From positions 2,441,501-2,505,500 of the forward strand of contig NZ_CP118611.1 of NCBI RefSeq assembly GCF_028993555.1: a DNA stretch of 64,000 nt, given 5' to 3'. The notes under the pieces are model-generated. The model saw only the letters and a list, made by a program, of their open reading frames with translations. It was not told where the DNA came from and ran no database searches. The DNA is from Ensifer adhaerens (GTDB taxonomy: Bacteria; Pseudomonadota; Alphaproteobacteria; Rhizobiales; Rhizobiaceae). This document shows positions 1,051 through 16,956 of this stretch, in pieces (within the stretch, counting starts at the first letter, position 1; the number at the start of each line of letters is the position of its first letter). Position numbers and translations under genes: made by a program.

Positions 1051-1209
1051 TTGCAAAGATTCTTTCTGAAGAAATCAGAAGTTGCGCCACCAGGGCCAGC
1101 ACGCACGGTGAACTAGCAATCAACGACTGGTTTCTCGCTCCTGGCGCCGCGATCGGAAGCAACCCAACTTGCGCGCCTGGGCGCCTTGCAGGGTCTTGCA
1201 AAGATTCTT
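1051..1209. promoter_or_regulatory. Candidate RpiR operator region with two 14-bp direct repeats
   Basis: The 346-bp gap between the divergent MFS and RpiR genes holds TTGCAAAGATTCTT twice, at 1051-1064 and 1196-1209. The first copy runs on into an imperfect inverted repeat (GATTCTTTC-TGA-AGAAATC). Repeats placed between a regulator and a divergent gene are typical operators. Which protein binds here is inference. No other gene is seen in the gap. Confidence 0.45.
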
Positions 1210-1280
1210 GCATCGCCCTCGTTGACGGCACGAAAGATTGCAGAAACGATAGATCCTGCAAATGAACTTGCGGGGACGTC

Positions 1281-2117
1281 ATGACGATACTCGATCGTAT
1301 CAAGACCCATTCCAGGCGGCTGACCGATGCGGATCAGAAACTGATCGCGACCATGCTGGAAAACCGGGCGGAAGCTGCGTTCCTGTCGGGCCCGCAGCTT
1401 TCCCAGCGCGCTTCCGTTCACGAGGCCACGGCCACGCGGCTTGCGCAGAAGCTGGGCTACAAGGGTTTTCCGGACCTTCGCGCACAATTGCAGCGTGAGG
1501 TGCTGGATGATCAGGACGCCGCCAACCGCATGCGCCGGTCGGTCTCCAAGGTCGAGCATGGCGATTACCTGACCGATCTGATTGCGGCCGAGATCACGGC
1601 ACTCGAAACGCTCGCCCGGTCGGTCGAACAGGCGGAAATCGACCGGGCTGCCGATCTGATCTTTTCCGCGCGCCGCGTCTTTATTTTCGGGCAGGGCCAT
1701 GCGCAATCCGTCGCCGGCTTCCTGCAACGCCGCCTCGATCGCTTCGGCATGACCACGATCCAACTGACGGGGCGCGGCCGCGACATAGCCGAGCGCCTGG
1801 TCAGCATGGATGCTGGCGACCTGGCGGTGGCGCTTGCTTTCCGCAAGCAACCGCAAAGCTACGGCCCGCTGATGCGGCACGCGACGCGCGTCGGCGCGAA
1901 ATCGATCCTCGTTTCCGATCTGGCCGGGCCGCTGATGGAGCCCGCCGCCGATCTGATGCTCGCGGCGCCAAGGGGGCGCTCGGGAAGCGAATTCCAGACA
2001 CCGACGATCCCGTTTGCGATCGTCAACGCCATCGTCCTGACGATCGCCGGGCGCCACCAGGGGCAGGTCATCGGCAGGCTGGAGAAGCTGTCGGAGCTGT
2101 TCAACGACTTCGACTGA
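1281..2117 (+). CDS. MurR/RpiR family transcriptional regulator
   Basis: A 278-residue regulator. Residues 1-75 form the RpiR-type helix-turn-helix (LSGPQLSQRASVHEATATRL, about 36-55). From about residue 120 there is a SIS domain (RRVFIFGQGHAQSVAGF), the fold that binds phosphorylated sugars in this family. The stop lies 26 bp before the start of a solute-binding protein gene on the same strand, so it heads or borders that operon. Family knowledge suggests it senses a sugar phosphate or other phosphate ester, which fits the phosphatase and Na/Pi genes downstream. The exact ligand is unknown. Confidence 0.9.
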   Translation: MTILDRIKTHSRRLTDADQKLIATMLENRAEAAFLSGPQLSQRASVHEATATRLAQKLGYKGFPDLRAQLQREVLDDQDAANRMRRSVSKVEHGDYLTDLIAAEITALETLARSVEQAEIDRAADLIFSARRVFIFGQGHAQSVAGFLQRRLDRFGMTTIQLTGRGRDIAERLVSMDAGDLAVALAFRKQPQSYGPLMRHATRVGAKSILVSDLAGPLMEPAADLMLAAPRGRSGSEFQTPTIPFAIVNAIVLTIAGRHQGQVIGRLEKLSELFNDFD

Positions 2118-2143
2118 GGGAAATGAAAAGGGAGGAGAAAAAC

Positions 2144-3265
2144 ATGTTGAAACGACTGACCAATGCCGCACTTGCCGCGTGTTTCGTATTGCCGTCGATC
2201 GCGATGGCGTCCGATCTCGATGGATTGACACCGCAGCAATTGCTGCCGCTCGCGCAGAAGGAGGGGAGCGTCACCGTCTTCTCGCTGTCGAGCCGTATCG
2301 CCAAGATCGAGAAGGCATTCGAAGAAGCCTACCCGGGCATCGACCTGATCGGCCTAGACATGAGCTCGACCAAGCAGATCGCCCGCGTCGAGGCGGAACA
2401 GCAGGCCGGCGTGCACGCCGTCGACGTACTTTACATCGCCGATACGCCCGTCGTGTTCACCAAGCTTCTGGAGGGAAAGCGGATCGTGAACTACGTCCCG
2501 CCGCGTGTCTTGAATGAACTGGAAGACCGCTACAAGGCACCGCTTCTGACCCAACGCCTCTCGACCAAGGTGCTGATGTACAACGAAAAGGCGTTTCCGG
2601 ACGGTTCGCCCGTCACCAATCTCTGGCAGCTTACGGAGCCGGAATGGCAGGGCCGGGTGCTGATGGTCGATCCGAGCCAGCGCGGAGAACTGCTCGATCT
2701 CTTGACCGAGATCGCACTTCATCCGGACGAGATGGCGGCCGCCTACAAGGCGCATTTCGGCAAGGACATCGAAGTGGAAGGCGATCTTCAGGGCGCCGGC
2801 GAGCAGTTCATCAAGGACCTGTTTGCCAATGACCTGATCCTGCTCCCGAACAGCGACGTGCTCAACAAGTCGATCGGCGACGTCAATGCCAAGAACCCGC
2901 CCGTCGGCTTCGGCACCTATTCCGACCGCCGCGACAACGAGAAGGAAGGTTGGGCCCTGCAGATCGCCAACAACGTCGAACCGGCCAACGGCATCCTCTT
3001 TCCGGCGGTGCTGACAGTCGCCGACAAGGCGCCGCATCCGGCAGCAGCCCGGTTGCTGATCGACTTCATGTTCGGCGACGACACGCCAACGGGCGGAGCC
3101 GGCTTCGAGCCGTTCAATGTTCCCGGCGACTACGCAACCCGCAAGACCATCGCCGACCATTCTGACTCGGTCAAACTCAGCGAGCTGAAGGCCTGGACGA
3201 TCGATCCGGCAAAGACGGCCGCTGCGCGCGGGCGCATCGCCGACCTGATCATCACGCTCCAGTAA
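2144..3265 (+). CDS. ABC transporter periplasmic binding protein, iron/organophosphate type
   Basis: A 373-residue protein. The ATG at 2144 is chosen because a strong GGGAGGAG ribosome site stands 7-10 bp ahead; an in-frame ATG at 2123 lies upstream of that site. Residues 1-22 are a Sec signal peptide ending in AMA. The mature part is an extracellular solute-binding protein of the family that includes FbpA/AfuA (ferric iron, or hexose phosphates for AfuA) and PhnS (aminoethylphosphonate). It is followed by a matching permease and ATPase. The RpiR regulator and phosphatase in the same operon favour a phosphate-containing ligand over iron; this is inference. Confidence 0.88.
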   Translation: MLKRLTNAALAACFVLPSIAMASDLDGLTPQQLLPLAQKEGSVTVFSLSSRIAKIEKAFEEAYPGIDLIGLDMSSTKQIARVEAEQQAGVHAVDVLYIADTPVVFTKLLEGKRIVNYVPPRVLNELEDRYKAPLLTQRLSTKVLMYNEKAFPDGSPVTNLWQLTEPEWQGRVLMVDPSQRGELLDLLTEIALHPDEMAAAYKAHFGKDIEVEGDLQGAGEQFIKDLFANDLILLPNSDVLNKSIGDVNAKNPPVGFGTYSDRRDNEKEGWALQIANNVEPANGILFPAVLTVADKAPHPAAARLLIDFMFGDDTPTGGAGFEPFNVPGDYATRKTIADHSDSVKLSELKAWTIDPAKTAAARGRIADLIITLQ

Positions 3266-3272
3266 CGGTAAC

Positions 3273-3312
3273 CGTCTGTCGACATGCTTTTCGCAACGCG
3301 TGTCGACAGACG
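3273..3312 (+). other. Intercistronic hairpin between binding-protein and permease genes
   Basis: CGTCTGTCGACA at 3273-3284 pairs with TGTCGACAGACG at 3301-3312, a perfect 12-bp stem with a 16-base loop. It starts 7 bp after the binding-protein stop. Hairpins at this place commonly stabilise the upstream mRNA and give binding protein in excess over permease. It also argues against the ATG at 3284, which would lie at the stem end. Confidence 0.75.
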
Positions 3313-3325
3313 CCGAGGCTCGCAC

Positions 3326-5071
3326 ATGACATCCCTATCCATATTCGCACCATCGGGCAGCCGGCTGCTCCGATCGGGCTTCCTCTTGCCGGCGCTTCTC
3401 GTTGCCATCGTCGCCATTCTGGTTGTTGCTCCGCTGCTGCGCATCCTCGTCACCACGTTGACGCCGGAGGGGCTTGCGGCGTGGAAGGCCGTGCTCATCA
3501 GTCCCTTGTCCGCCAATCTCTGGTGGCGGCCGCTCCTCAATACGATGGTCCTCGGCTTCAGCGTCGGTGGCGGCTGCCTGCTCATCGGCGGGTTCCTCGC
3601 CTGGCTGGTCGTGCTCACCGACGTCCCGGGCCGCCGCTTCCTCGGCCTGATGGCGACGCTGCCCTACATGATCCCGAGCTTTGCCGCCGCCCTTGCCTGG
3701 GGCACGCTGTTTCGCAATTCCCGCCTCGGCGGCTCGGCCGGTTTCTTCGAGACCAGCGGCCTTGCCATTCCGGACTGGCTCGCCTGGGGCCTGATCCCGA
3801 CGGCAATCGTGCTGATCGCGCATTACTATTCGCTCGCCTACACCATCATCGCCGCGGCACTGAGCTCGGTGGGTGCCGACCTCGTCGAGGCCGGACAAAT
3901 GGCCGGCGCCAAGCGCCCTCGCATCTTCTTCGGCATCATCCTGCCGGTCGTCACACCGGCCTTGATCGCCGCCACGTCCCTGACCTTCGCCGGCGCCGTC
4001 GCCAACTTCGCCGCACCCGCACTGCTCGGCCTGCCGGTGCGCATGCAGACGCTTTCCACCCGCCTCTTCGGCATGATCGAGACGGGGCAGAACGAGCGCG
4101 GCTTTGTCATCGCTCTACTGCTGATCGCTGTGTCTGCTCTCTTTCTCTGGCTCTCGGACCGTATCGTCTCCGGGCGCAAGGCCTTCATCACCGTGACGGG
4201 CAAGGGCGGGCGGACCAAACGTTTCCCGCTCGGCGCCTGGCGCTGGCCGCTCTTCGCCATCGCCGTCGTCATCGGGCTTCTGACAACGATCCTTCCGGTC
4301 CTCGTGCTAGCCGCGTCGAGCCTTGCGCCACAAAGCGGCGCACTCTTCTCCAACTGGACGCTGCATTTCTGGATCGGCGAAGGCGGCGGCGAGATGGCGC
4401 AGGGACAGGCCGGAATCTTCCGCAATCCCGTACTGATCGATGCGATCTGGAACACGATCCGCCTCGGCCTCGTCGTCGCCTTCACGACGATGCTGCTCGG
4501 CCTTGCGCTTGCCTATACCATCGTGCAACGCAAGGGCAGCCTGCTTGCGACGCTCCTCAGCCAGCTCGCCTTCCTGCCGTTGCTGGTACCGAGCATCGCC
4601 TTTGCCGCCGCCTATATCGCGCTCTTCGGCGCGCCGATCGGGCCGCTGCCCTCGCTATACGGCACCTTCGCGCTGCTGGTCATCGCGGCATCCGCGCACA
4701 ACCTGCCCTTTGCCGTGCAGTCCGGCCGCTCCGTGCTTGGCCAGATCTCCGCCGATATCGAAGAAAGCGCCCGGCTCACGGGTGCGGGCCTGATCCGTCG
4801 TCTCTTCGCGATCATCTTTCCGCTCGCCATCCGCGGCCTCTTTGCCGGGGCAATCCTCGTCTTCGTCAAGATGGTGCGGGATCTGTCGCTGGTGGTGCTG
4901 TTGTTCACCGCCACCTCGCCGGTACTCAGCATGGTTGCCTACCGCTATGCGGCCGAAGGTTTCATGCAGTTCGCCAATGCCATCACCCTCGTCATCCTCG
5001 TCGTCTGCCTGGCTGCCTCGTTCCTCGCCCACGCCCTGCAGAACCGGGTCCAGAAATGGAAACAACCATGA
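3326..5071 (+). CDS. ABC transporter permease with two fused membrane domains (FbpB/AfuB-like)
   Basis: A 581-residue inner-membrane protein with about twelve helices in two halves, each with the conserved cytoplasmic EAA loop that docks the ATPase: EAGQMAGAKRPRIFFGIILP in the first half and EESARLTGAGLIRRLFAIIFP in the second. The double-length permease is characteristic of the iron/thiamine/phosphonate ABC subfamily. The ATG at 3326 has a GAGG at 3314-3317; an upstream in-frame ATG at 3284 lies inside the intercistronic hairpin and is less likely. The stop overlaps the start of the ATPase gene by 4 bp (ATGA), so the two are translationally coupled. Confidence 0.9.
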   Translation: MTSLSIFAPSGSRLLRSGFLLPALLVAIVAILVVAPLLRILVTTLTPEGLAAWKAVLISPLSANLWWRPLLNTMVLGFSVGGGCLLIGGFLAWLVVLTDVPGRRFLGLMATLPYMIPSFAAALAWGTLFRNSRLGGSAGFFETSGLAIPDWLAWGLIPTAIVLIAHYYSLAYTIIAAALSSVGADLVEAGQMAGAKRPRIFFGIILPVVTPALIAATSLTFAGAVANFAAPALLGLPVRMQTLSTRLFGMIETGQNERGFVIALLLIAVSALFLWLSDRIVSGRKAFITVTGKGGRTKRFPLGAWRWPLFAIAVVIGLLTTILPVLVLAASSLAPQSGALFSNWTLHFWIGEGGGEMAQGQAGIFRNPVLIDAIWNTIRLGLVVAFTTMLLGLALAYTIVQRKGSLLATLLSQLAFLPLLVPSIAFAAAYIALFGAPIGPLPSLYGTFALLVIAASAHNLPFAVQSGRSVLGQISADIEESARLTGAGLIRRLFAIIFPLAIRGLFAGAILVFVKMVRDLSLVVLLFTATSPVLSMVAYRYAAEGFMQFANAITLVILVVCLAASFLAHALQNRVQKWKQP

Positions 5072-6168
5072 ACGCCATAACAACCGGCACCGCGGACGCC
5101 ATCAAGATCCGCAGCCTCGTCAAAAGGTTTGGTGCCTTCACCGCCGTCAAGGACGTCAACATCTCCGTACCCGCCGGTTCCTTCCTGGTTCTCGTCGGGC
5201 CGTCAGGCTGTGGCAAGTCGACTCTCCTGCGCATGCTGGCCGGGCTCGAGAGCCCGAGCGAAGGGGAAATCGACTTCGTCGGACAGACCGTTTCCAGCGG
5301 TGCAGGCGGCGTCATCGCCGACGCCGGCCGGCGCAATGCCGGCCTCGTTTTCCAGAGCTACGCGCTCTGGCCGCACATGACCGTCGCCGGCAACATCGCC
5401 TGGCCCCTCAAGGTCGCCAAATGGCCACGGGACAAGCGGGAAGGGCGCGTGAAAGAGGTGCTTTCGTTTCTCGGCATCGACGCGCTTGCCGAGCGCTATC
5501 CGGCAGAGATCTCCGGCGGCCAGCAGCAGCGCGTGGCGATTGCCCGCACGATCGCGCCAGAGCCGAGCATCCTGCTCTTCGACGAGCCGCTGTCGAACCT
5601 CGATGCCAAGCTGCGCATCGAAATGCGCAGCGAACTGATGCGTATCCACCGGGCGACCGGCGCAACATCGGTCTATGTGACGCACGACCAGGTCGAGGCC
5701 ATGACCATGGCGACCCATGTGGCCGTGCTCAACAATGGTCGCGTCGAACAGTTCGGCAAGCCGATCGATCTGCTGCGCAACCCGCAGACCACCTTTGTCG
5801 CGACCTTCCTCGGCACGCCACCGGCAAACCTGATACCGGTACAACGGGTGGATGACAGGTTCATGTTCGGCGAAACGGCGCTCGCGCCGGCAACCCTTGC
5901 GGTCGGCCGCGACGCAGTGCAGCTCCTCTATCGCGCCGAGGACGTCAGCGTCGGCTCGGTCGCCGGAGCCCCATCGCTCTCCGCCCGCTTTGCCGAAGCC
6001 GCGCCGATTGCCGGACGCACCATGGTGACGGCGATGGTCGACGAGATGCGCGTCACCGCCATGGCCGACGGCTACTTCACCGCGACGCCCGGGGAGACGA
6101 TCCCCCTTTCCTTCATTCGTACACCCGATGCGGTTTTCGCCGCCACCGGAGAAAGGATCCATCAATGA
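5068..6168 (+). CDS. ABC transporter ATP-binding protein
   Basis: A 366-residue ATPase. It has Walker A GPSGCGKST (44-52), Q-loop VFQSYALWP (about 94-102), signature ISGGQQQR (148-155), Walker B ILLFDE (168-173) and switch histidine in VTHDQ (H206), followed by a TOBE-like C-terminal domain of about 120 residues. The start overlaps the permease stop (ATGA) and the stop overlaps the next gene by 4 bp, so it is in the middle of a tightly coupled operon. It energises import by the binding protein and permease upstream. Confidence 0.93.
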   Translation: MNAITTGTADAIKIRSLVKRFGAFTAVKDVNISVPAGSFLVLVGPSGCGKSTLLRMLAGLESPSEGEIDFVGQTVSSGAGGVIADAGRRNAGLVFQSYALWPHMTVAGNIAWPLKVAKWPRDKREGRVKEVLSFLGIDALAERYPAEISGGQQQRVAIARTIAPEPSILLFDEPLSNLDAKLRIEMRSELMRIHRATGATSVYVTHDQVEAMTMATHVAVLNNGRVEQFGKPIDLLRNPQTTFVATFLGTPPANLIPVQRVDDRFMFGETALAPATLAVGRDAVQLLYRAEDVSVGSVAGAPSLSARFAEAAPIAGRTMVTAMVDEMRVTAMADGYFTATPGETIPLSFIRTPDAVFAATGERIHQ

Positions 6169-6770
6169 GGCTCATCCTCATGCGCCACGGCGAGACCGAA
6201 TGGAACGCTGAACAACGGCTTCAGGGCCAGGACAACTCGCTCTTGTCCGAGCGCGGTGTCGCGCAGGTGCGGCGGTTTCGCCCCTATGCCAAGGCGCTGA
6301 AACCGGTTCGCATCATTGCGTCCGATCTCGGGCGCACCCGGCAGACCGTCGCACTCATCGGCCATCCCGATGCGCCAACGGACGAGCGTTTTCGCGAGCT
6401 CGACATGGGCGAGTGGACCGGGCGGCGCAAGCCGGACCTGATCGCCGAACGCCCGGAGGAATATGCGGCCTGGCGCGCCGGGACCTTCACCCCGGCCAAT
6501 GGCGAAACCTGGGGTGCCTTTCGCGGGCGCGTGGCCGAAGGCGTTCACGACTGGATGTCCCGCACGGAAGGGGACCTGTTGATCGTCGCCCATGGCGGCG
6601 TCGTCCGCGCCGCCTGCCACGAATTCCTCGATCTTCCGCCGTCGCGCGTCGTTCCGGTGACCCCTGGGACGGCAACCATCCTGCATTTCCCGCGACGCGG
6701 CAGCATGGCCGCGCAGCTCGAAGGCTACAATATCGGCTCTGTCGCCCCCGACGAATCCGTCGCCGACTGA
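6165..6770 (+). CDS. Histidine phosphatase family protein (phosphoglycerate mutase-like)
   Basis: A 201-residue protein with the family motif LMRHGETEWN (R7, H8, G9; H8 is the phosphate acceptor), a second arginine in SDLGRTRQT (R57), the proton donor region RELDMGEW (E78) and the second histidine in VAHGGV (H143). These residues are the full catalytic set of the branch-1 histidine phosphatases, which act mostly as phosphomonoesterases on small metabolites. It overlaps the ABC ATPase gene by 4 bp. No signal peptide is present, so it acts in the cytoplasm, probably on the imported compound. The substrate is not known. Confidence 0.9.
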   Translation: MRLILMRHGETEWNAEQRLQGQDNSLLSERGVAQVRRFRPYAKALKPVRIIASDLGRTRQTVALIGHPDAPTDERFRELDMGEWTGRRKPDLIAERPEEYAAWRAGTFTPANGETWGAFRGRVAEGVHDWMSRTEGDLLIVAHGGVVRAACHEFLDLPPSRVVPVTPGTATILHFPRRGSMAAQLEGYNIGSVAPDESVAD

Positions 6771-6792
6771 TGCCTGCGACGAGGGCAGCGAG

Positions 6793-8478
6793 ATGAACTC
6801 CGGAACATTGGTCATCCTGGAACTCCTTGGCGGCGTGGCGCTGCTTCTGTGGGGCGTGCGCATGGTGCGCACCGGCGTCATGCGTGGCTGGGGTGACCGG
6901 CTGCAGCGTTTCGTCGAGGAGCGCCTGTCGAACCGGCTCACGGCCTTCGGCAGCGGTGTGCTGGCGACCGCCGTGCTCGGCAGCGCAACGGCGATGGCGC
7001 TGATCGTTGCCGGACTTGCGGGCGCCGGGGCGATCTCGGCACCAACAGGACTTGCGGTCCTGCTTGGGGCGGATATCGGCTCGGCGCTCGTCTCGGGCCT
7101 CTTTGCCTCCGGCTCCTCGCTCGCGGCGATGCTCGCCCCACTGTTTCTGTTCGCCGGCTATGTCGCCTTCAACGCGTCGAGCGAATTTCGCCCGCGAAAT
7201 GCGGGGCGCATCCTGATGGGCCTCGGCCTGATGCTGATGGCGTTGAAGGTGATCGTTGCCGCGACCGCGCCGCTGCGCCAGGCGACGCTCTTCCACGATG
7301 TTCTGGGAACCGTTGCCGGTGAGCCCGTGCTCGGCTTCCTCGTCGGCGCATTGCTTGCCTGGCTCTGTCACTCGACGCTCGCGGTCATCCTGCTTGTGGC
7401 TTCGCTTCTGATGAGCGGCAGTCTCGAAATTGCCGGAGCCGTGCCCCTGATCCTGGGCGTCAATTTCGGGGGCGGCCTTCCGGCCGTCAGCGCCACGCTC
7501 GACCAGCCACCCGTGGCCCGCAAGCTGCCGCTCGCCAACCTGTTTTGCCGCGGTCTTTTGGCGATCGCGCTCCTGCCTTTTGCGCGAGAGATCGTGGAGA
7601 TCGCCGGGCGCCTGCCCGCCGAGCCGCTCCACGTCGCCGTCGGCCTCCACGCTGCCTTCAACCTGCTGGTCGCAGCCGTGTTCCTGCCGCTGTCTCCGAT
7701 CGTCATCCGCCTGGTCGAGCGCCTTGTCCCGGCACGCCCCGTCGCGGACGACCCGCTTGCGTCCCCGCGCTATCTCGACGGAAGGACCCTCGAAACACCG
7801 GCAATCGCGCTCAGCAATGCGACGACCGAAACGATACGCATGAGCGAATTATTGGAACGCATGTTCCTGATGTCGCTGACGGCGCTGCAAACCGGTCGGA
7901 TGGAACCGCTGAAGGAATTGCCCTCGATCGACGCGAGGCTTGGAAACTACATGGCCTCGGTCCACGCCTATCTCGGTCAGTTGACGCAGGACGAGCTTTC
8001 GGCCGAGGATACCGGCAGAGCCCACGAGATCATGCTGTTTGCGAGCAATCTCGAACATGCCGGCGACGTCATCAAGCTCAGCCTCGCCGACCGCATTCGG
8101 GCCAAGGTCAAGCAGGACGTCGCCTTGAGGGCGAGCCAGCGCGAGGCACTCGATGCCCTCTCGGAAGTGATCGCCGCGTCGCTCAGGCTGCTTCCTGCGG
8201 CGCTCCTGTCGCGCGACGTCTCCGCCTCAGCCCGCCTTGCAGCCCAGAAGGATCGCTTTCGAGACTTGGAGGATGACGTCGTCGGCCGGCATCTCGGTCG
8301 CGAACGCATCGAAGCGGCCGGCGATGCGAAAGGCAATGCGCTGTTCATCGACCTCGTTCGCGACCTGCACAGGATCAACTCCGATATCGCCGCCGCCGGC
8401 TACCCGCTGGTTCAGGCAGCCGGGCTGTTGAGCAGCAGCCGAATCAGAAGCACTCTGCCGGCAGGTGCTGCCGGCTGA
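6793..8478 (+). CDS. Na/Pi-cotransporter family protein with PhoU-like tail
   Basis: A 561-residue protein. The first 320 residues hold two repeats of the NptA/Na-Pi cotransporter membrane domain: GSATAMALIVAGLAGAGAIS with GLAVLLGADIGSALV in the first, CHSTLAVILLVASLLMSG with ILGVNFGGGLPA in the second. The C-terminal part (about 340-550) is helical and PhoU-like. Bacterial members move phosphate across the inner membrane, in either direction depending on gradients. It starts 22 bp after the histidine phosphatase gene, so phosphate released by that enzyme is the obvious cargo; export would be one plausible direction. Confidence 0.88.
   Translation: MNSGTLVILELLGGVALLLWGVRMVRTGVMRGWGDRLQRFVEERLSNRLTAFGSGVLATAVLGSATAMALIVAGLAGAGAISAPTGLAVLLGADIGSALVSGLFASGSSLAAMLAPLFLFAGYVAFNASSEFRPRNAGRILMGLGLMLMALKVIVAATAPLRQATLFHDVLGTVAGEPVLGFLVGALLAWLCHSTLAVILLVASLLMSGSLEIAGAVPLILGVNFGGGLPAVSATLDQPPVARKLPLANLFCRGLLAIALLPFAREIVEIAGRLPAEPLHVAVGLHAAFNLLVAAVFLPLSPIVIRLVERLVPARPVADDPLASPRYLDGRTLETPAIALSNATTETIRMSELLERMFLMSLTALQTGRMEPLKELPSIDARLGNYMASVHAYLGQLTQDELSAEDTGRAHEIMLFASNLEHAGDVIKLSLADRIRAKVKQDVALRASQREALDALSEVIAASLRLLPAALLSRDVSASARLAAQKDRFRDLEDDVVGRHLGRERIEAAGDAKGNALFIDLVRDLHRINSDIAAAGYPLVQAAGLLSSSRIRSTLPAGAAG
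8457..8475 (+). terminator. Hairpin at the end of the Na/Pi gene
   Basis: GCCGGCAG and CTGCCGGC form an 8-bp stem around a GTG loop, ending directly before the TGA stop at 8476. There is no T-run, so it may be an RNA-stabilising or Rho-assisted end. Confidence 0.4.
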
Positions 8479-8628
8479 ACGGAGGACGACTGTCAGCTTC
8501 GGTCGTGTCGTGTCCGTTTTCGGCGCGCCAGGAGTCTTGAAGCCACTTTTCCGTGCCGCGATGGCCCGGCAACGTGATCCAATAGTGTTCGTCAAGCGGC
8601 GGCGTTCTCTCAAAACGCCCCCGACCCG

Positions 8629-9138
8629 TCAGTAGGGCGAGATGCAGATCTGCCGCGGACCGTGATAGGGCTGGTACGTATCGTCGTAAGCTCTGTAGGA
8701 CCGGTAGCGGGCATAGCACCAACTCGTGTGCGCATCGCCGCCATAATAGGTCTGCCGGTAATAGCGCGGCGCATAGTAGCGCGGGCGATAGTAGGTCGGG
8801 CCGTAATAGCCTTGGTTGTAGTAGCCCTGATTGTAATAACCCTGATCGTAGTAGCCCGAGCCATAATAGGGCTGCGCCAGCGCTCCACCGATGATCGCAC
8901 CAGCGGCCAGTCCGCCGAGCGCCCAGGCCCAATCGTCGCCGCCGCCGTGGTTGTGCCCGTGATAATTACCGCCATGGTAGCCACCGCGGTAACCGCCACC
9001 GTATCGTCTGTACTGAACCAGTTGCGCTTGCGCCGTCTCGATCTTCGGGGCGCCCGCTATCGTGGGAAATGCCATGGCCGGCGAAACGCTGGTCAGCGCC
9101 GCCGCCGTGGACAAGGCAATGATCGTCAGCCTGTTCAT
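8629..9138 (-). CDS. BA14K family protein, Tyr/Gly-rich exported protein
   Basis: A 169-residue protein on the minus strand. The ATG at 9138 follows a perfect GGAGGTAAG ribosome site. Residues 1-23 are a signal peptide ending in AMA. The middle has a Gly/Tyr/His-rich stretch, a short hydrophobic glycine segment ([16 protein letters not shown]) and tandem YYNQG units followed by [12 protein letters not shown] repeats. The C-terminus with [15 protein letters not shown] and QICISPY resembles the BA14K domain, named from a Brucella 14-kDa immunoreactive protein with lectin-like activity. Likely envelope-associated. A TATACT box at 9171-9176 on this strand suits a promoter with a very short leader. 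Confidence 0.82.
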
Positions 9139-9388
9139 TGGCTTACCTCCATTTTCCCCGCTTGTGCCGGAGTATACATCGGAAAAGCCGCCGAAGCACT
9201 GCGTTTTGGCGGCGCGCGCCGCCGGGTGTGGCGCGCCGCCGGACGCGTTTCTTTCGGACAACCGCACGCGAGATCGGCTTGGCCGCCCACTAAGGATCGG
9301 GTTTCCGAGATCTTCACGCCCGTACGGCTGCGCCTTTGATCGCGGAGGATGCTCATACCGCGTGCCACCATCTTTTATTTCATTTTTC

Positions 9389-9428
9389 GCAATTCAATCG
9401 CAATTATTATTGCAATTCAACGGCGCAA
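9389..9428. promoter_or_regulatory. Phased GCAAT repeats upstream of the cysteine hydrolase
   Basis: The 392-bp gap between 9139 and 9530 contains an AT-rich island with GCAATTCAA at 9389 and 9412, GCAATTATT at 9400 and GCAAT at 9424. Steps are 11, 12 and 12 bp, about one helical turn. A 16-bp GC palindrome lies at 9208-9223, nearer the BA14K gene. Both look regulatory; binders are unknown. Confidence 0.4.
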
Positions 9429-9530
9429 TCCGGTCGGCTACATCTGTTCTCACCAAACGAGTTCACCACCGACCGGAACGACCAGGCACCGACGCCCCGC
9501 TTTTCAACCAGCTCAAAGAGGAGAAAGCCC

Positions 9531-10220
9531 ATGTCCAAACTCGAAGTCCTGACCCCGCAGAACAGCCAGCTGATCTTCATCGACCAGCAGCCGCAGATGG
9601 CCTTCGGCGTTCAGTCGATCGACCGCCAGGTGCTGAAGAACAACGTCGTCGGCCTTGCCAAGGCCGCAAAGGTCTTCGACATCCCGACGACGATCACCAC
9701 CGTCGAGACCGGATCCTTCTCCGGCCACACCTATCCCGAACTGCTCGCCGTCTTCCCGGAAAACGATATCCTCGAACGCACCTCGATGAACTCCTGGGAC
9801 GATCAGAACGTCCGCGACGCGCTGGCCAGGAATGCCGCCAACGGCCGCAAGAAGATCGTCGTCTCCGGTCTGTGGACCGAAGTCTGCAACACCACCTTTG
9901 CGCTCTCGGCCCTCCATGATGTCCCGGACTACGAGATCTACATGGTCGCCGACGCCTCCGGCGGCACCTCGGTCGATGCGCACAAATACGCCATGGACCG
10001 CATGGTCCAGGCCGGCGTCATCCCAGTCACCTGGCAGCAGGTCCTGCTCGAATGGCAGCGCGACTGGGCCCGCAAGGAAACCTACAATGCCGTCACTTCG
10101 CTGGTGAAGGAACATTCCGGCGCCTATGGCATGGGCATCGATTACGCCTACACCATGGTCCACAAGGCCGACGAACGCGTCCGTCACGGCAAGACGATCG
10201 GCCCCAACCCGGTCAAGTGA
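9531..10220 (+). CDS. Isochorismatase-family cysteine hydrolase (YcaC-like)
   Basis: A 229-residue protein. The ATG at 9531 has an AGAGGAGA ribosome site 7 bp ahead. The sequence has the family layout: an early IFIDQQPQMAFG with the conserved aspartate, then VSGLWTEVCNTTFALSAL, where the cysteine is the predicted nucleophile. The match is closest in style to YcaC-type hydrolases, a group with unsettled substrates. It stands alone between an AT-rich leader and a strong hairpin. It is a cytoplasmic enzyme; isochorismate itself is unlikely as substrate, since no siderophore genes are near. Confidence 0.88.
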   Translation: MSKLEVLTPQNSQLIFIDQQPQMAFGVQSIDRQVLKNNVVGLAKAAKVFDIPTTITTVETGSFSGHTYPELLAVFPENDILERTSMNSWDDQNVRDALARNAANGRKKIVVSGLWTEVCNTTFALSALHDVPDYEIYMVADASGGTSVDAHKYAMDRMVQAGVIPVTWQQVLLEWQRDWARKETYNAVTSLVKEHSGAYGMGIDYAYTMVHKADERVRHGKTIGPNPVK

Positions 10221-10268
10221 CCCCCGGCCCGACCAGCGAAGCTCCCCATCGCTTCGGCACGATTGACA

Positions 10269-10294
10269 AGGCCGGTCCCGCAAGGGGCCGGCCT
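10269..10294 (+). terminator. Strong hairpin terminator after the cysteine hydrolase
   Basis: AGGCCGGTCCC and GGGGCCGGCCT pair as an 11-bp stem with one wobble around a GCAA tetraloop, 48 bp after the stop. The T content downstream is low (CTGCGTTTATG). Confidence 0.65.
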
Positions 10295-10453
10295 CTGCGT
10301 TTATGCGATTTCGATTGAGATCGCGACACGCCCCGAAAGCCGCAGATGGCCTTTCAGGTCGCGTTTCCCGGCTCTCCGCATGCCGCAAGCCCGGTTGCCG
10401 GCACCACTATGCCGAATTTGAAATTAAGGAACACAGTCATTTTCCAAATTTGA

Positions 10454-10499
10454 TTGACAACTCGGCTCCTCGCGCGCATTTTAGAAAACAATAGTTTTC
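10454..10499 (+). promoter_or_regulatory. Predicted emrA-like promoter with overlapping operator
   Basis: TTGACA at 10454-10459 and ATTTTA at 10478-10483 are 18 bp apart. Directly after the -10 lies an inverted repeat GAAAAC-AATA-GTTTTC (10484-10499), placed where a repressor would block transcription. The remaining 336-bp gap to the previous gene holds only the hairpin terminator. Confidence 0.5.
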
Positions 10500-10556
10500 C
10501 TAATTCGGCGAACGGCGTTTTGGATCGCCCCGCCATACCGGGGAAAGGAACCGGTC

Positions 10557-11759
10557 ATGAACCAGCACACGGCAATCGCCATCACAGAAGCCCCCTCTCC
10601 GACTGCCGAGACGTTGCCGGCCATTCGGCTCCCCGAGGAACTGCCTGCTATCCCGCCTGCCCTGGCGCCGAACGCGAAGGTACCCGCGAAGCGGTGGCTG
10701 CGCGGCCTGCTCTTCGCCTCGGTGGCCGCCGCAGCCCTGGCGGCCGCCGCCGATTTCGGGTGGGGATACTGGACGACAGGCCGCTTCCAGGTGTCGACCG
10801 ACGACGCCTATGTGAAGGCCGACAGCACGACGATTGCGCCCAAGGTATCCGGCCATATCGCCGAGGTGCTCGTGGCCGACAACGAGCGGGTGAAGGCGGG
10901 ACAGATCCTCGCCCGCATCGACGACCGCGATTTCAACGTCAGCCTCGAACGGGCGATGGCCGAGGTCGAGGCAGCCGAAGCCAACATCGCCAACAAGCAG
11001 TCGGCCCTGGTGGCCCAGCAATCCGCGATCGAAGCGGCAAAGGCGACGGTCGAGGCCGACAGGGCCGACCAGACCTTTGCCGAACAGGACGACAAACGCT
11101 ATTCGGAACTCGCCAGACAGGGCTTCGGCACCATTCAGAATGCTCAACAGGCGGCTTCGCGCATCACGGCCGCCCGTGCCGCGGTAACACGGGATACGGC
11201 AGCACTTGCCAATGAAACCAAGCAGCTTGACGTGATCAAGGCCGAAGTCGCCCAGGCGAAGGCGGCACTCGACAGCGCCAAGGCGGCGCAGAACCAGGCT
11301 CGCCTGAACCTCTCCTATACCACCCTTGCCGCCCCCATCGATGGCGTGATCGGCAACCGTACCCTGCGGGTCGGCCAATATGTACAGGCCGGCACCCAGT
11401 TGATGGCCGTCGTCCCGACGGAGGCGGCCTACATCGTCGCCAACTACAAGGAGACCCAGCTTACCGGCGTCCATCCCGGCCAGAAGGTGACAGTCGAAGT
11501 GGACACCTTCCCCGGCCAGGTCTTCGAGGGGCATGTCGACAGCATCTCGCCGGCGAGCGGCCAGGAATTTGCGCTGCTGCCGCCGGACAATGCGACGGGA
11601 AACTTCACGAAGGTGGTGCAGCGCATTCCGGTCAAGATCGTACTCGACCGGGGCATCCCACGATCGGTGATCTTGCGGCCCGGCATGTCGGTCTACCCGA
11701 CCATCGATACCAACCCGACGGCGACCGAAGTCGCGTCAAAGTCGGAAAAGATCTACTAG
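10557..11759 (+). CDS. HlyD/EmrA-family membrane fusion protein
   Basis: A 400-residue periplasmic adaptor. A single transmembrane helix lies near residues 47-68 after a proline-rich cytoplasmic tail, followed by a lipoyl/barrel-sandwich segment (DDAYVKADSTTIAPKVSGHI), a long alanine-rich coiled coil (about 130-250) and the second lipoyl half with LNLSYTTLAAPIDGVIGNR. This is the EmrA layout, which partners a 14-helix MFS pump and an outer-membrane channel. The EmrB-like gene follows after 48 bp; no TolC-like gene is in the window. Role: efflux of hydrophobic compounds or acids. Confidence 0.9.
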   Translation: MNQHTAIAITEAPSPTAETLPAIRLPEELPAIPPALAPNAKVPAKRWLRGLLFASVAAAALAAAADFGWGYWTTGRFQVSTDDAYVKADSTTIAPKVSGHIAEVLVADNERVKAGQILARIDDRDFNVSLERAMAEVEAAEANIANKQSALVAQQSAIEAAKATVEADRADQTFAEQDDKRYSELARQGFGTIQNAQQAASRITAARAAVTRDTAALANETKQLDVIKAEVAQAKAALDSAKAAQNQARLNLSYTTLAAPIDGVIGNRTLRVGQYVQAGTQLMAVVPTEAAYIVANYKETQLTGVHPGQKVTVEVDTFPGQVFEGHVDSISPASGQEFALLPPDNATGNFTKVVQRIPVKIVLDRGIPRSVILRPGMSVYPTIDTNPTATEVASKSEKIY

Positions 11760-11807
11760 GGGCGATTGGGCGCCCGTCTCACCAGCCAGACACGGCAGGA
11801 GGGTGTT

Positions 11808-13418
11808 ATGTCCACCATTGCTGATACAGCTGCCCCCGGCACGCTGCCAACCGCAGCGGCGCCCTCTGAAAAGGCGAGCACGAAAGCATGGATCGCGGTG
11901 ATTGCCGGCCTGATCGGCGCCTTCATGGCGATCCTGAACATCCAGATCACCAACGCCTCGCTGCTCGATATCGAGGGCGGCATCGGCACGGGCGTCGACA
12001 ACGGCGCCTGGATATCGACCTCCTACCTGATCGGCGAGATCGTGGTGATCCCCCTTACCGACTACTTCAGCCGCGTCTTCTCGTTCCGGCGCTACATCCT
12101 GGCAAATGCCATCCTGTTCCCGATCTTTTCCGCGGCTTGCGCCTTCGCCCATGATCTCGGCTCGATGATCGTGCTGCGCGGTCTGCAGGGCGTTGCGGGT
12201 GGCGTGCTCATCCCCATGGCTTTCACGATGATCCTGACCCGGTTGCCCAAGGCGCAGCAGCCGTTCGGGTTGGCACTCTTCGCCCTGTCCGTCACCTTCG
12301 CGCCGGCGATCGGCCCGACGATCGGCGGCTATCTCACCGAGAACTACGGCTGGCAGTCGATCTTCTTCGTCAACACGCCTCCAAGCATGGTCATGGTGGT
12401 TGCGCTCTACTTCACGCTCGAGAAGAAGCAAATGCAATTGTCCCTGCTCAAGGAGGGCGACTGGGCCGGCATCATCACCATGGCGATCGGGCTCTCGGCC
12501 CTGCAAACCGTACTCGAGGAGGGCAACAAGGACGACTGGTTCCAGTCGCCGCTCATCGTCAAGCTCGCCTTGGTCGCAACCGTGTTTCTGACCGCCTTCG
12601 TCATCATCGAACTCAAGGTCGAAAAGCCGCTGGTCCAGCTGCGTCTGCTCAGGCAGCGCAACTTCGGCGTCGGTGTCCTCGTCAACGTGCTGGTCGGCGT
12701 GGCGCTGTTCGGCACCGTCTACATCCTGCCGCAGTATCTGGGTCAGGTGCAGCGCTACAATGCCGAGCAGATCGGCTTCGTGCTCGCCTGGACCGGGTTG
12801 CCGCAGCTCCTCATCATTCCGCTCGTACCGACATTGATGAAGCGCTTCGACGCGCGCTACGTCGGCTTCGTCGGCATCAGCATCTTCGCCGTCAGCTGTT
12901 TCATGAACACGACGCTCTCGCTCGACAGCGCCGGCGACCAGTTCTTCGTACCCAATATCGTGCGCGCCATCGGCCAGGCACTGGTGCTGACGCCGATCAC
13001 GGTGATCACGACCGCCGGCATTGCTCCAAGCGAGGCGGCCGCCGCTTCCGGCCTGTCGAACATGCTGCGCAATCTCGGCGGTGCAGTCGGAACGGCCACG
13101 CTCGCGACCGTGCTCACCAAGCGCGAGCAGTTCCATTCCAACATCATCGGCCAGTCCGTCACGCTTTCCCGCGACGAGGTCCGTGACCGGATCGGCGATC
13201 TGACCCAGCACTTCTTGACGCATGGCGTAACCGACGCCGCCGTTGCACAGCACAAGGCGATCGCAGTTATCGGCGCGACGGTTCACCGCCAGGCGCTTAT
13301 CCTGGGCTTCAGTGATACGTTCGCCGTAATCGGCACCGTGTTGGCGCTCGCTGCCATCGCCCTGCTTTTCACCCGCAAGATCCAGCTCGGCGGCGCAGGT
13401 GCGGGCGGTGCCCATTGA
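11808..13418 (+). CDS. DHA2 family MFS efflux pump (EmrB-like)
   Basis: A 536-residue protein with about 14 helices. The ATG at 11808 has AGGAGG 6 bp ahead. Typical parts are GAFMAILNIQITNASL in helix 1, GAWISTSYLIGEIV in helix 2, the RGLQGVAGGVLIPMAFT region in helix 4 and motif C-like FAPAIGPTIGGYL in helix 5. It pairs with the membrane fusion protein upstream to pump drugs or toxic acids across both membranes. No local TetR or MarR regulator gene is found, although an operator-like inverted repeat lies at the promoter. Confidence 0.92.
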   Translation: MSTIADTAAPGTLPTAAAPSEKASTKAWIAVIAGLIGAFMAILNIQITNASLLDIEGGIGTGVDNGAWISTSYLIGEIVVIPLTDYFSRVFSFRRYILANAILFPIFSAACAFAHDLGSMIVLRGLQGVAGGVLIPMAFTMILTRLPKAQQPFGLALFALSVTFAPAIGPTIGGYLTENYGWQSIFFVNTPPSMVMVVALYFTLEKKQMQLSLLKEGDWAGIITMAIGLSALQTVLEEGNKDDWFQSPLIVKLALVATVFLTAFVIIELKVEKPLVQLRLLRQRNFGVGVLVNVLVGVALFGTVYILPQYLGQVQRYNAEQIGFVLAWTGLPQLLIIPLVPTLMKRFDARYVGFVGISIFAVSCFMNTTLSLDSAGDQFFVPNIVRAIGQALVLTPITVITTAGIAPSEAAAASGLSNMLRNLGGAVGTATLATVLTKREQFHSNIIGQSVTLSRDEVRDRIGDLTQHFLTHGVTDAAVAQHKAIAVIGATVHRQALILGFSDTFAVIGTVLALAAIALLFTRKIQLGGAGAGGAH

Positions 13419-13460
13419 ATGCCCGCAGGTCAAAGGACGCGCACTTAGAGGAGGCAGATC

Positions 13461-13925
13461 ATGAACAGTTCGACGCCCGCTCGCCTCTTTCTCGACGACC
13501 TCTATGTGGGCCAACGCTTTACAAGCGCGACCCATATCATCGACGAAGCCCAGATCAAGGCTTTCGCCATGCAGTTCGACCCGCAGCCTTTTCACCTCGA
13601 CGAGGCAAAGGCCAGGGACACGCTCTTCAAGGGGCTGGCCGCAAGCGGATGGCACACCGCCGCCATCACGATGCGCCTCAATGTCGAGACCGGCCTGCCA
13701 TTTGCCGGTGGCCTCATCGGCGCAGGCGGAGAAATCAACTGGCCGGCGCCGACGCGCCCCGGGGACACGCTGCATGTGGAAAGCGAAGTGGTGGAGATCA
13801 TACCGTCCCGCTCGAAGCCTGATCGCGGCATCGCCGTCGTTGTCAGCAGCACCATCAATCAGCGTGGCGAAGTGGTGCAGAACCTCAAAGCCAAACTCGT
13901 CCTCAAGCGGAAAGCGGCAGATTGA
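13461..13925 (+). CDS. MaoC family dehydratase
   Basis: A 154-residue hot-dog fold protein. The active-site motif of R-specific enoyl hydratases appears as DPQPFHLD (D40, H45), followed by FKGLAASGWHTAAITM. It starts after a GAGGAGG site, 42 bp downstream of the efflux pump and on the same strand. It is probably an enoyl-CoA or acyl-thioester hydratase acting in the cytoplasm. Its link to the efflux genes is by position only. Confidence 0.87.
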   Translation: MNSSTPARLFLDDLYVGQRFTSATHIIDEAQIKAFAMQFDPQPFHLDEAKARDTLFKGLAASGWHTAAITMRLNVETGLPFAGGLIGAGGEINWPAPTRPGDTLHVESEVVEIIPSRSKPDRGIAVVVSSTINQRGEVVQNLKAKLVLKRKAAD

Positions 13926-14144
13926 CGCTGACCCAGCCCGAATAGGTGCAAGGACGGGCGACCTTCATTCCGTCGCAACCAAATCATCTAGCATCGGACT
14001 GGCCAGCGCGAGCCGGACCGCGCGCTCGGACAGACGGCGTTGCACGCGCCGAGCAGAGGCTGGAAACGAGGCAATGCTCGTATTTCTCAACAATCAACCG
14101 ACCACTGCCGCGTTCACGGCGTGCGCGAATGCGGAGGCACTGCG

Positions 14145-14903
14145 ATGGAACTGACCGCCCTGACCATTATGGTCGCCTTTGCCGGGGTATTCCTGATCTG
14201 CTTCATGAAGGGGGCGTTTGGCGGCGGTTTTTCCATACTCGGTATCCCGCTGCTGTCGCTGGTGATGGACCCGGTCACCGCCGGCGGCCTTCTCGCGCCG
14301 CTCTTCGTGGCAATGGATCTGTACGGCTTGCGCTACTTCAAGCGCACGACCTGGTCTGCTCCCGACCTCGTGCTGCTGCTTCCGGGGCTCGTGATTGGCA
14401 TCGGGCTCGGCTATCTGCTGTTCCGCTTTCTCGATCACCGCACCGTCGCGATCGTGATGGCGGCGACGACGCTGCTCTTCGTCGGCCTGTGGCTTGCAAG
14501 GGGCGCAGAGGTAACGGCGCGCCCACGCTCGACCCCCAAGGCAATTTCGGCCGGCCTCGCCTCAGGCATCACCACGATGGTCGCCCACTCCGGCGGACCG
14601 CCACTGGCGATGTATCTTCTGCCGCTTGGCCTCAGCAAGGAGGTCTATGCGGGAACGACGAGCCTTTTCTTTACCGTCGGCAATGCGACCAAGGCCCTGC
14701 CATGGTTGTTCCTGGCAAAGCCGAACGCCGATCTCGGAGTGCTGATGGCGATCTGCCTGTTCGCCATTCCGAGCGGTGTTACGCTCGGCTGGCGGCTCCA
14801 GGGCAGGCTCTACCAGCGGCAGGTCTATCGCGCCTGCTATGGATTGCTGGCCCTGGTCGCGCTGAAGCTATTGTGGGACGGTGTTTCCGGCTTTCTCGCT
14901 TGA
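14145..14903 (+). CDS. TauE/SafE family sulfite/organosulfonate exporter-like permease
   Basis: A 252-residue membrane protein of about eight helices. The ATG at 14145 has GGAGG 8 bp ahead. The first repeat shows the family's GAFGGGFSILGIPLLSL, and the second begins with SGITTMVAHSGGPPLAMYLLP; these two glycine-rich motifs define TauE/SafE (DUF81) proteins, which export sulfite, sulfonates or other small anions. It stands alone, with no sulfur genes adjacent, so the substrate is open. Confidence 0.88.
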   Translation: MELTALTIMVAFAGVFLICFMKGAFGGGFSILGIPLLSLVMDPVTAGGLLAPLFVAMDLYGLRYFKRTTWSAPDLVLLLPGLVIGIGLGYLLFRFLDHRTVAIVMAATTLLFVGLWLARGAEVTARPRSTPKAISAGLASGITTMVAHSGGPPLAMYLLPLGLSKEVYAGTTSLFFTVGNATKALPWLFLAKPNADLGVLMAICLFAIPSGVTLGWRLQGRLYQRQVYRACYGLLALVALKLLWDGVSGFLA

Positions 14904-15121
14904 CCGCCGCATCGCCTGACGACCCAAGGAAGCGAGACAACCCAAAGAAGATGGCGTTGCGAAGGCGCAGATCACGCCATAGGCTTATCGCGCAAGCTGC
15001 GCCTGCAAGGCTTCGCACTTTGCGTATTGACCTAAGTTTCTCAAAGAGTTGAAGTACCCTGGCCACTCAAGCGAGGAATTTCACCCTGCACAGCAGCGCA
15101 CCCTTCACGGCAGCGGGAGAG

Positions 15122-16915
15122 ATGGGTCAGCTGATCCGATCTCATCGCTGGGATGACAGCCCGCTCGGCCCCATGGAGGCTTGGCCGCCATGCCTGGCGG
15201 CGGCGGTCGACATCATGTTGCCGGCGCAGGCGCAGATTGTGATGTTCTGGGGCGAGGAGTTCGTTGCGCTCTACAACGACGCCTATGCGCCCACCATCGG
15301 GGACAAGCACCCTCGTGCGCTGGGGCGCCCGGCACGCGAAAACTGGGGTGAGCTTTGGGGTGACCTCGAACCTCTGCTGCAGCGCGTGCTGAAGCGCGGC
15401 GAGACGGTGGTTGCGAAAGACCGTCCCTTCTACATCGAGCGTCACGGTTATCCCGAAACGGTGTACTTCGATATCTCCTACTCGCCCGTCCGGGACGAGG
15501 AAGAGAGGGTTCGAGGCGTGTTCTGCATTGTCAACGAAACGACGGAACGCGTGAAGTTCGAGAGCGCCCTGCAGGCCAACGAAGAGCGGCTTCGCGCAAT
15601 CTTCTCGCAATCGGCCGCCGGCATCAGCCAGATGGACCTGACGGGCCGCTTCCTCTTGGTCAACAATCGCTTCTGCGAAATCGTCGGCTACAGCGAAGCC
15701 GAATTGCTGACGATGCGCATGCATGACATCACCTTTCCCGAAGACGTCGCCGAAAGCGCCCGCCTGTTCAAGACGATGGTGAGCACGGGCCAAAGCTACG
15801 AGATCGAGAAGCGCTACCTGCGCAAGGATGGTGGTCTTGTCTGGGTAACGAACTCGGTCTCCGCGCTCCGCGACGAGCGCGGCAATTTTCGTCAGGCCGC
15901 CGCCGTCATCGTCGACATCACCGAGCGCAAGCGGGCCCAGGAGGTCGAGCGTCGTCTTGCGGCCATCATCGCGTCCTCCAACGATGCCATCCTCGGCATC
16001 GATCTCAGGATGAGGATCACGACCTGGAACGCCGGAGCCGAAAGGCTCTACGGTTACTCGGCCGAGGAAATGGTCGGCCGGTCCGTGATGACGCTGGTGC
16101 CCGAGGACCGAATTGACGAAGAGCCCGCGATCCTCAGACAGGTGAGCGCGGGCCTCAAGGTCGAGCCATACGAGACCAAACGGCTCCACAAGGACGGTCG
16201 AAGCGTCGACGTCCTGCTCAGCGTTTCACCGATCTACGACGCCTATGGCAGCATCGTTGGTGCTTCGAAGCTGGCCCACGACATAACCGTGCGAAAGGAA
16301 GCCGAGCGCCTTCAGACCGTCCTCGTCGGCGAGCTGAACCATCGCGTCAAGAACGTGTTTGCGACCGTTCTGGCCATTGCCCGGCAGACGCTCGGCCGCA
16401 GCGACGCGACGGACGCCGGCGAGGTGCAGGCCTTTGAGGCGCGGCTGGTTTCGATGGCGCGGGCCCACGACCTTTTGACCCATGGAACCTGGGAACGGGC
16501 GGAGTTGCAGGCGATCATCAACCAGGCGATCTCCCCCTACGCGCAGGAGAGGTTTGTCGTGTCCGGCCCGCCGATCCAGGTTCCACCGCGAATGGTCGTG
16601 TCGCTGTCCCTGGCGCTGCATGAGCTCGCCACGAATGCCGCCAAATACGGCGCCCTTTCGACAGCGGACGGACGGGTCTCGATCACATGGTCGCTCAAGA
16701 CCGGCACGCCGACCCGGCTGACGCTGCGCTGGCAGGAATCCGGCGGTCCGCTGGTAAAGCAACCATCGCGCAAAGGATTCGGCTCGCGTCTGATCCAGAC
16801 ACTCCTGGCAGCCGAACTCAACGGCCAGGTGGAGATCAGCTACCACCCCTCGGGCCTGGTGTGTTCCGTCGATGCAGCCCTGCAAGTCGGGTGGGACGAG
16901 CCCACTTCGTCCTGA
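15122..16915 (+). CDS. PAS-domain HWE-family sensor histidine kinase
   Basis: A 597-residue cytoplasmic kinase with three PAS regions (about 5-145, 150-275 and 276-400) and a C-terminal HWE kinase domain. The phospho-accepting histidine is in VGELNHRVKN (H407), and the ATP-binding part has LALHELATNAAKYGALS. The open frame extends upstream of the ATG at 15122 to a stop near 15053, and relatives usually carry a few residues before GEMG. A CTG at 15086 has GAGGA 8 bp ahead and is a possible unusual start adding 12 residues. No response regulator is adjacent; HWE kinases in rhizobia often feed the general stress response or light sensing. Confidence 0.88.
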   Translation: MGQLIRSHRWDDSPLGPMEAWPPCLAAAVDIMLPAQAQIVMFWGEEFVALYNDAYAPTIGDKHPRALGRPARENWGELWGDLEPLLQRVLKRGETVVAKDRPFYIERHGYPETVYFDISYSPVRDEEERVRGVFCIVNETTERVKFESALQANEERLRAIFSQSAAGISQMDLTGRFLLVNNRFCEIVGYSEAELLTMRMHDITFPEDVAESARLFKTMVSTGQSYEIEKRYLRKDGGLVWVTNSVSALRDERGNFRQAAAVIVDITERKRAQEVERRLAAIIASSNDAILGIDLRMRITTWNAGAERLYGYSAEEMVGRSVMTLVPEDRIDEEPAILRQVSAGLKVEPYETKRLHKDGRSVDVLLSVSPIYDAYGSIVGASKLAHDITVRKEAERLQTVLVGELNHRVKNVFATVLAIARQTLGRSDATDAGEVQAFEARLVSMARAHDLLTHGTWERAELQAIINQAISPYAQERFVVSGPPIQVPPRMVVSLSLALHELATNAAKYGALSTADGRVSITWSLKTGTPTRLTLRWQESGGPLVKQPSRKGFGSRLIQTLLAAELNGQVEISYHPSGLVCSVDAALQVGWDEPTSS

Positions 16916-16956
16916 TCGCACCGTGGCGGCGCACAAACAGCATGGCCGGTACGGGC

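Follow-up and report, generated by a model that had tools for sequence, protein, structure and literature searches.

A run of six genes on the plus strand of Ensifer adhaerens (positions 1281 to 8478 of the window, the 64,000-nucleotide stretch of contig NZ_CP118611.1, 2,441,501 to 2,505,500, analysed here) reads, from its sequence, as an RpiR-repressed scavenging operon that would import a phosphate ester, dephosphorylate it in the cytosol and optionally vent inorganic phosphate (Pi), a reading to which we assign a probability of a little under 0.6. The genes encode a MurR/RpiR-family regulator (rpiR, 1281..2117), a periplasmic solute-binding protein of 373 amino acids (sbp, 2144..3265), a permease of 581 amino acids in which two BPD_transp_1 halves are fused (3326..5071), an ATP-binding cassette (ABC) ATPase of 366 amino acids (5068..6168), a branch 1 histidine phosphatase of 201 amino acids (hpt, 6165..6770) and, as an optional member, a Na/Pi-cotransporter family protein of 561 amino acids with a PhoU domain (napi, 6793..8478).

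In the proposed mechanism the binding protein would pick up a phosphate ester on the periplasmic side, for transport into the cytosol by the fused permease and the ATPase, and the histidine phosphatase, itself cytosolic, would strip the phosphate to leave Pi and a carbon compound for general metabolism. Through its SIS domain RpiR would sense the ester brought in, or a sugar phosphate related to it, and leave three phased operators, while the Na/Pi-PhoU protein, where present, would let surplus Pi out; elsewhere Pi would be used or handled by other transporters. Import and dephosphorylation are supported because the phosphatase is almost invariably linked to the importer, because its active site is intact, because the binding proteins are without the tyrosine pair of iron importers and because related importers are paired with phosphate-releasing enzymes in the same genome. 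Of the path first suggested by a sequence-only reading, these two steps are thus supported, and the Na/Pi step only in part.

Conservation of the cassette

A pattern scan of a species-genome collection returned 52 loci, 29 of them close to the window (binding protein 63-96% identical) and 23 distant (28-38%), and further members of a second branch (about 55-63%) came from plasmid records and searches of 297 and 385 genomes. This second branch is uncommon, with 9 of the 297 and 3 of the 385 genomes positive at strict thresholds, the window's own genome being counted in each. The close set comprises 55 loci including the window, Sinorhizobium meliloti appearing four times among them, and was reduced to 48 representatives by dropping L021, L025, L070, L073, L074, L077 and L109 (L numbers being locus handles). 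Since L021 and L025 end before the phosphatase position, 53 loci are assessable for gene order, and in 52 of these the order is RpiR, binding protein, permease, ATPase, phosphatase, with no broken order anywhere; among the representatives the phosphatase is present in 47. The regulator is found in 54 of the 55 loci (L025 begins after its place) and lies within 250 bp of sbp in 53. Because the five-gene order recurs so regularly, the arrangement of six genes in the window is not due to chance, and because the genes flanking the cassette vary from genus to genus, the five look like a closed unit. The sequence-only reading had named a lack of conservation of the phosphatase and Na/Pi genes next to the transporter as a finding that would speak against it; the outcome is split, for the phosphatase is conserved and the Na/Pi gene is not, being found directly after the phosphatase in 16 of the 48 representative loci.

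Carriers are mostly alphaproteobacteria of many genera. A gammaproteobacterial carrier, a Cardiobacteriaceae metagenome-assembled genome (L032), has the cassette with extra tandem binding-protein genes between rpiR and sbp. S. meliloti 1021 bears a second-branch copy on pSymA (280693-286218), whose RpiR is suggested by map position to be SMa0520; the literature passages seen that name SMa0520 give no substrate. The genes SMa0391-0396 had been considered as an S. meliloti copy with published data and were set aside, as pSymA 200001-250000 gave an ATPase match only. No description of the gene set was found in the literature searched, which consisted of partial text with subscription journals mostly outside its coverage.

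Some further features of individual loci may be recorded here. The cassette of L109 (NZ_CP084753, Roseateles sp. XES5, a record marked unverified) is about 90% identical to that of the window, like the Shinella copies, and the record being labelled betaproteobacterial, either transfer or a mislabelled record is indicated. In L024 the permease gene and in L013 the napi gene are each split into two matching pieces, by draft error or decay. An MgtC/SapB family gene lies upstream of an Agrobacterium second-branch cassette (L068, 461-937), and MgtC also occurs in the Paenibacillus cluster L036 described below. Sugar-acid, fructose-bisphosphate and phosphotransferase system genes stand near some cassette copies and are leads only.

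The phosphatase and related clusters in the same genome

The hpt product matches His_Phos_1 with 154.5 bits, its closest relatives of solved structure, 1h2e/1ebb among them, are phosphatases, and the catalytic residues R7, H8, R57, E78 and H143 are invariant in 52 of 52 cassette copies; on these residues it is a histidine phosphatase of branch 1 with an intact active site. Another histidine phosphatase gene of the same genome, 29-31% identical to that of the window in its product, directly adjoins a Na/Pi gene (L092, 8681-11171, on C1), with no importer among the called genes.

The same-genome context speaks most clearly for function. Of the five PF02690 (Na/Pi) genes in this genome, three neighbour importers of this general kind and enzymes that release phosphate, namely those of the window, L090 and L091. 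L090 (cluster C, C2:1625000-1644000) is a 2-aminoethylphosphonate (2-AEP) pathway cluster, with a PhnS2/T2/U2 importer, PhnW, PhnA, PhnY, a Na/Pi gene and a phn LysR regulator, and its permease and ATPase match those of the window by BLAST. L091 (C2:1652500-1672000) holds a fused permease, an ATPase, two binding proteins, an inositol-monophosphatase family protein and a DSPc phosphatase, and near this importer are a Na/Pi gene, a metallophosphoesterase, a second DSPc gene and a LacI regulator.

Kinship with L090 raises the alternative that the window encodes a phosphonate importer of the AepXVW/PhnSTU kind, for its permease and ATPase match the PhnU2 and PhnT2 models and the true 2-AEP cluster of the genome also includes a Na/Pi gene. 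The scores, however, are far under the cut-offs (131.5 bits against 593.25 for the permease and 304.9 against 457.7 for the ATPase; the PhnS2/T2/U2 models are TIGR03261/03262/03265), the binding protein, searched at 0.001, matches no NCBIfam model, PhnS2 included, and no gene for carbon-phosphorus (C-P) bond cleavage was seen as a shared neighbour in the cassette flanks, which were clustered with unannotated families not all named. A phosphonate importer is therefore improbable.

The ligand class of the binding protein

Automatic database names present the cassette genes as an iron(III) transport system, and the best PDB matches of the binding protein are the 7f6* entries, annotated as iron-binding, which we take to be a metal-citrate binder. 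Taken at their word, these labels would make the unit a ferric iron importer. In FbpABC ferric importers, adjacent tyrosines serve as iron ligands; an adjacent-tyrosine pair is absent from all 55 cassette binding proteins, the phosphatase and RpiR are linked to the importer, and no iron gene was noticed among the neighbours that the cassettes share, which together make ferric import the least credible of the alternatives, with very little chance of being right. The sequence-only reading had itself named iron ligation by the usual tyrosines as the finding that would speak against it, and this sequence test turned up no adjacent pair.

The 7f6* matches also bear on a further alternative, that the imported small molecule carries no phosphate (a carboxylate or metal-carboxylate, for example) and is phosphorylated once in the cell, where the phosphatase would keep a toxic phospho-intermediate from accumulating; RpiR would also sense such an intermediate. 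In the clustered flanks of L005-L033 and the window, however, no kinase family accompanies the cassette from genus to genus, nor is any single catabolic gene common to the flanks, and the related importers of the same genome sit with phosphate-releasing enzymes. We consider this alternative unlikely, though it deserves more weight than import of iron or phosphonate.

Within the binding protein, R81, R121, R138, K142, R180, R303, E268 and Y259 are invariant or nearly so in 53 cassette sequences and rare or absent in 15 distant relatives, and these eight cassette-specific residues are candidate ligand contacts. A binding-protein profile built from 26 sequences and searched at E up to 10 gave no AfuA-named structure among its 15 matches, and an attempt to map the AfuA ligand residues onto the binding protein by way of intermediate paralogs yielded no trustworthy alignment. 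The description of the importer as Afu/Phn-like, offered by the sequence-only reading, thus survives for its general architecture and lapses for AfuA structures and the PhnS2 model.

Phosphatases beside distant relatives

Genes around the distant importers were compared in two sets: a near set of 63 of the 73 listed genes within two positions of an importer (ten were dropped as short, very long or ABC genes), and a control of 63 of the 88 listed farther genes (25 were dropped, including the HAD and inositol-monophosphatase genes of L036), families being counted among the top 25 of each set. Of the near genes, 14, at 11 of 21 loci, fall into families that include phosphatases (HAD, DSPc, PHP, histidine phosphatase, metallophosphoesterase and PTP-like phytase), against about 5-7 of the farther 63, or 7-9 of 65 when the two L036 genes are counted. 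Some control genes sit in the same clusters as the importers (L036, L052), which works in the opposite direction. Five of the 23 distant loci (L039, L042, L046, L051 and L054) have a DSPc homologue on the opposite strand next to the importer, and this repeated neighbour is the best part of any generalisation about phosphatases. In L036 of Paenibacillus doosanensis (7310-20030), genes for a PTP-like phytase, a LacI-like regulator, three binding proteins, a permease, an ATPase, MgtC, a HAD hydrolase and an inositol monophosphatase run in one direction, a gene content that hints at inositol phosphates among the substrates of such systems.

It is conceivable, if doubtful at present, that the operon represents one branch of a large, undescribed superfamily for phosphate-ester scavenging, in which a divergent fused-permease ABC importer would time and again have been combined with varied cytosolic phosphatases (histidine phosphatase, HAD, dual-specificity, inositol-monophosphatase, PHP and PTP-like phytase), often together with a Pi-venting Na/Pi-PhoU protein. 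Were this so, organic phosphate would be used by these bacteria mainly for carbon, and free Pi returned to soil and sea.

The Na/Pi gene

The napi product matches Na_Pi_cotrans with 116.5 bits and PhoU with 29.5 bits, and NF037997 above its cut-off. The cassettes with napi directly after the phosphatase all belong to the first branch (16 of 33, against 0 of 15 in the second). Its presence on the tree takes seven gains or losses, compared with 13.8 when labels are shuffled, and 15 cassette Na/Pi proteins fall into one supported clade of 20 rows whose other five members are of unknown context (the split L013 gene was left out). Because the cassette proteins form one clade, napi has either moved together with the cassette, with several losses, or been acquired on a few occasions.

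Na/Pi cotransporters carry a QSS motif in each repeat, visible also in the SLC34 alignment, and the genome's four other Na/Pi members retain QSS in their first repeat. Across 26 aligned Na/Pi rows, G63-S64 and H193-S194 are invariant. Because napi is without the usual QSS motifs, Pi export is something that we only infer; where the gene is present, venting of surplus Pi is its most likely role. The protein might instead have another task, such as import of Pi, transport of another anion or Pi sensing via PhoU, a possibility that concerns the sixth gene alone and is compatible with the scavenging operon as a whole. Both QSS motifs are altered, the gene is optional and sequence does not show which way transport runs, all of which would suit another task, while co-inheritance with the cassette and the occurrence of Na/Pi genes at two further phosphate-releasing clusters of the genome fit Pi disposal; another task is thus possible and the less probable of the two. 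The Na/Pi step of the path as first proposed keeps the cassette-linked clade in its favour, and has against it the restriction of the gene to a minority of loci in one branch and the changed transport motifs.

Weighing the evidence

A number of observations weigh against a phosphate-ester scavenging operon with Pi release. Sequence searches with the binding protein retrieved no phosphate-ester binder of solved structure, and its L090 counterpart gave no BLAST match to it; the DSPc match in L091 is under the Pfam cut-off. The distant locus G620 has an importer without a matching phosphatase, the next gene reading as a Cas9-like protein. The phosphatase excess beside distant importers is not convincing (one-sided Fisher p 0.02 to 0.16), and the HAD and PHP families are broad and include proteins other than phosphatases, with HAD genes common anyway; because the control is weak and HAD genes are common, the phosphatase generalisation is a lead, not a result. 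At the final step, 32 of the 48 representative cassettes have no napi beside them, and of 19 genomes without an adjacent napi, 17 have another family member and two have none that was found. Where canonical members have QSS, napi has LGSATA and CHSTLA, and related Na/Pi proteins can import Pi.

Regulation and gene layout

Three operator-like sites stand before rpiR. The first, TGCAAAGATTCTTGCA (1197..1212), is a perfect TGCAA-N6-TTGCA palindrome and recurs in many related loci at an identical or closely similar position; the second (1227..1242), 30 bp after it, is degenerate, with two mismatches; and the third, TGCAAATGAACTTGCG (1257..1272), a further 30 bp on, has one mismatch. A candidate -35 hexamer, TTGACG (1222..1227, plus strand), was picked out by eye and missed by the consensus scan, and is followed by no good -10. 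In 31 first-branch upstream regions there are 72 sites with at most two mismatches against 6.1 expected, a comparison that yields no probability because the regions are related; three regions (L033, L069 and L066) are without a site. Of 15 second-branch upstream regions, for which no expectation was computed, 14 have one site or more, and the RpiRs of the two branches share only about 32-40% identity. The threefold occurrence of the palindrome ahead of rpiR, and its presence in both branches, make self-repression of the unit probable, with RpiR acting through three phased operators. A genome-wide operator search gave 181 hits compared with 186 in a reversed control, and so no regulon; the sole perfect hit besides the operon's own site appears on inspection to fall within a coding gene.

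The Pfam families agree with the six assignments made from the open reading frames by the sequence-only reading, all on the plus strand and in the places it gave: HTH_6 (59.7 bits, cut-off 28.3) and SIS (24.3 bits, slightly under the cut-off of 25) in RpiR, SBP_bac_11/SBP_bac_1 in the binding protein, two matched BPD_transp_1 stretches in the permease, ABC_tran in the ATPase, and the phosphatase and Na/Pi families given above. Its 4-bp overlaps from permease to phosphatase are likewise confirmed, as ATGA at 5068-5071 (permease/ATPase) and 6165-6168 (ATPase/phosphatase). The remaining junctions have gaps of 26 bp (rpiR/sbp), 60 bp (sbp/permease) and 22 bp (hpt/napi), and longer alternative starts exist for the sbp and permease reading frames. 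The sbp/permease gap (3266..3325, plus strand) contains a stem-loop of -29.2 kcal/mol (z -4.1), and stable folds of differing sequence occupy this gap in 24 of 25 chosen loci (L024 was not folded, and the z-score applies to the window only); perhaps the stem-loop keeps binding-protein mRNA in excess. Beyond the operon lie a gene for a BA14K-family protein with a repetitive tyrosine/glycine-rich middle (8632-9267, minus strand) and, at 9531-13418 on the plus strand, genes for an isochorismatase-family hydrolase and, after it, an EmrA/EmrB-like efflux pair (HlyD and MFS).

Implications and comparison with known systems

If the unit does take in an ester and dephosphorylate it in the cytosol, it would add a carbon-driven way for alphaproteobacteria, of the rhizosphere and elsewhere, to turn over organic phosphorus, would correct annotations as iron(III) transport, and would offer a compact, self-regulated sensor-importer unit; the pSymA copy of S. 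meliloti 1021 makes the question directly testable in a laboratory strain. To our knowledge, binding-protein importers of intact phosphate esters have rarely been characterised.

UgpBAECQ resembles the present unit in being an ABC importer, of glycerol-3-phosphate and glycerophosphodiesters, linked to a hydrolase, and differs in that the hydrolase is a phosphodiesterase, regulation is of the PhoB type and the two permeases are separate. YjbB/NptA has the Na_Pi_cotrans and PhoU architecture of napi, without the alteration of both QSS motifs that sets napi apart.

AfuABC, once called a ferric transporter, is a hexose/heptose-phosphate importer that takes esters intact, the sugar-binding triad of AfuA being His205-Asp206-Glu229 (PMC4546632). 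It shares with the present unit a periplasmic binding protein, permease and ATPase; the present unit, by contrast, further includes a phosphatase and an RpiR regulator and, at some loci, a Na/Pi gene, and no match to AfuA was detected. P5PAB is a pyridoxal-phosphate importer related to AfuA (54% identical) with no ATPase gene downstream, whereas the present binding protein has no detectable similarity to AfuA (PMC8427247). The word phosphatase is absent from the main text of that paper, and the present unit has such an enzyme.

A further parallel is offered by AepXVW/PhnWAY, whose importer, like the present one, adjoins phosphate-releasing enzymes, as in cluster C of this genome with its additional Na/Pi gene. 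That system differs in its C-P bond chemistry, LysR regulator and binding-protein family, and Pi export is reported during use of 2-AEP as a nitrogen source (PMC8316502). By analogy, such export provides a precedent for the optional Pi-venting step of the present operon.

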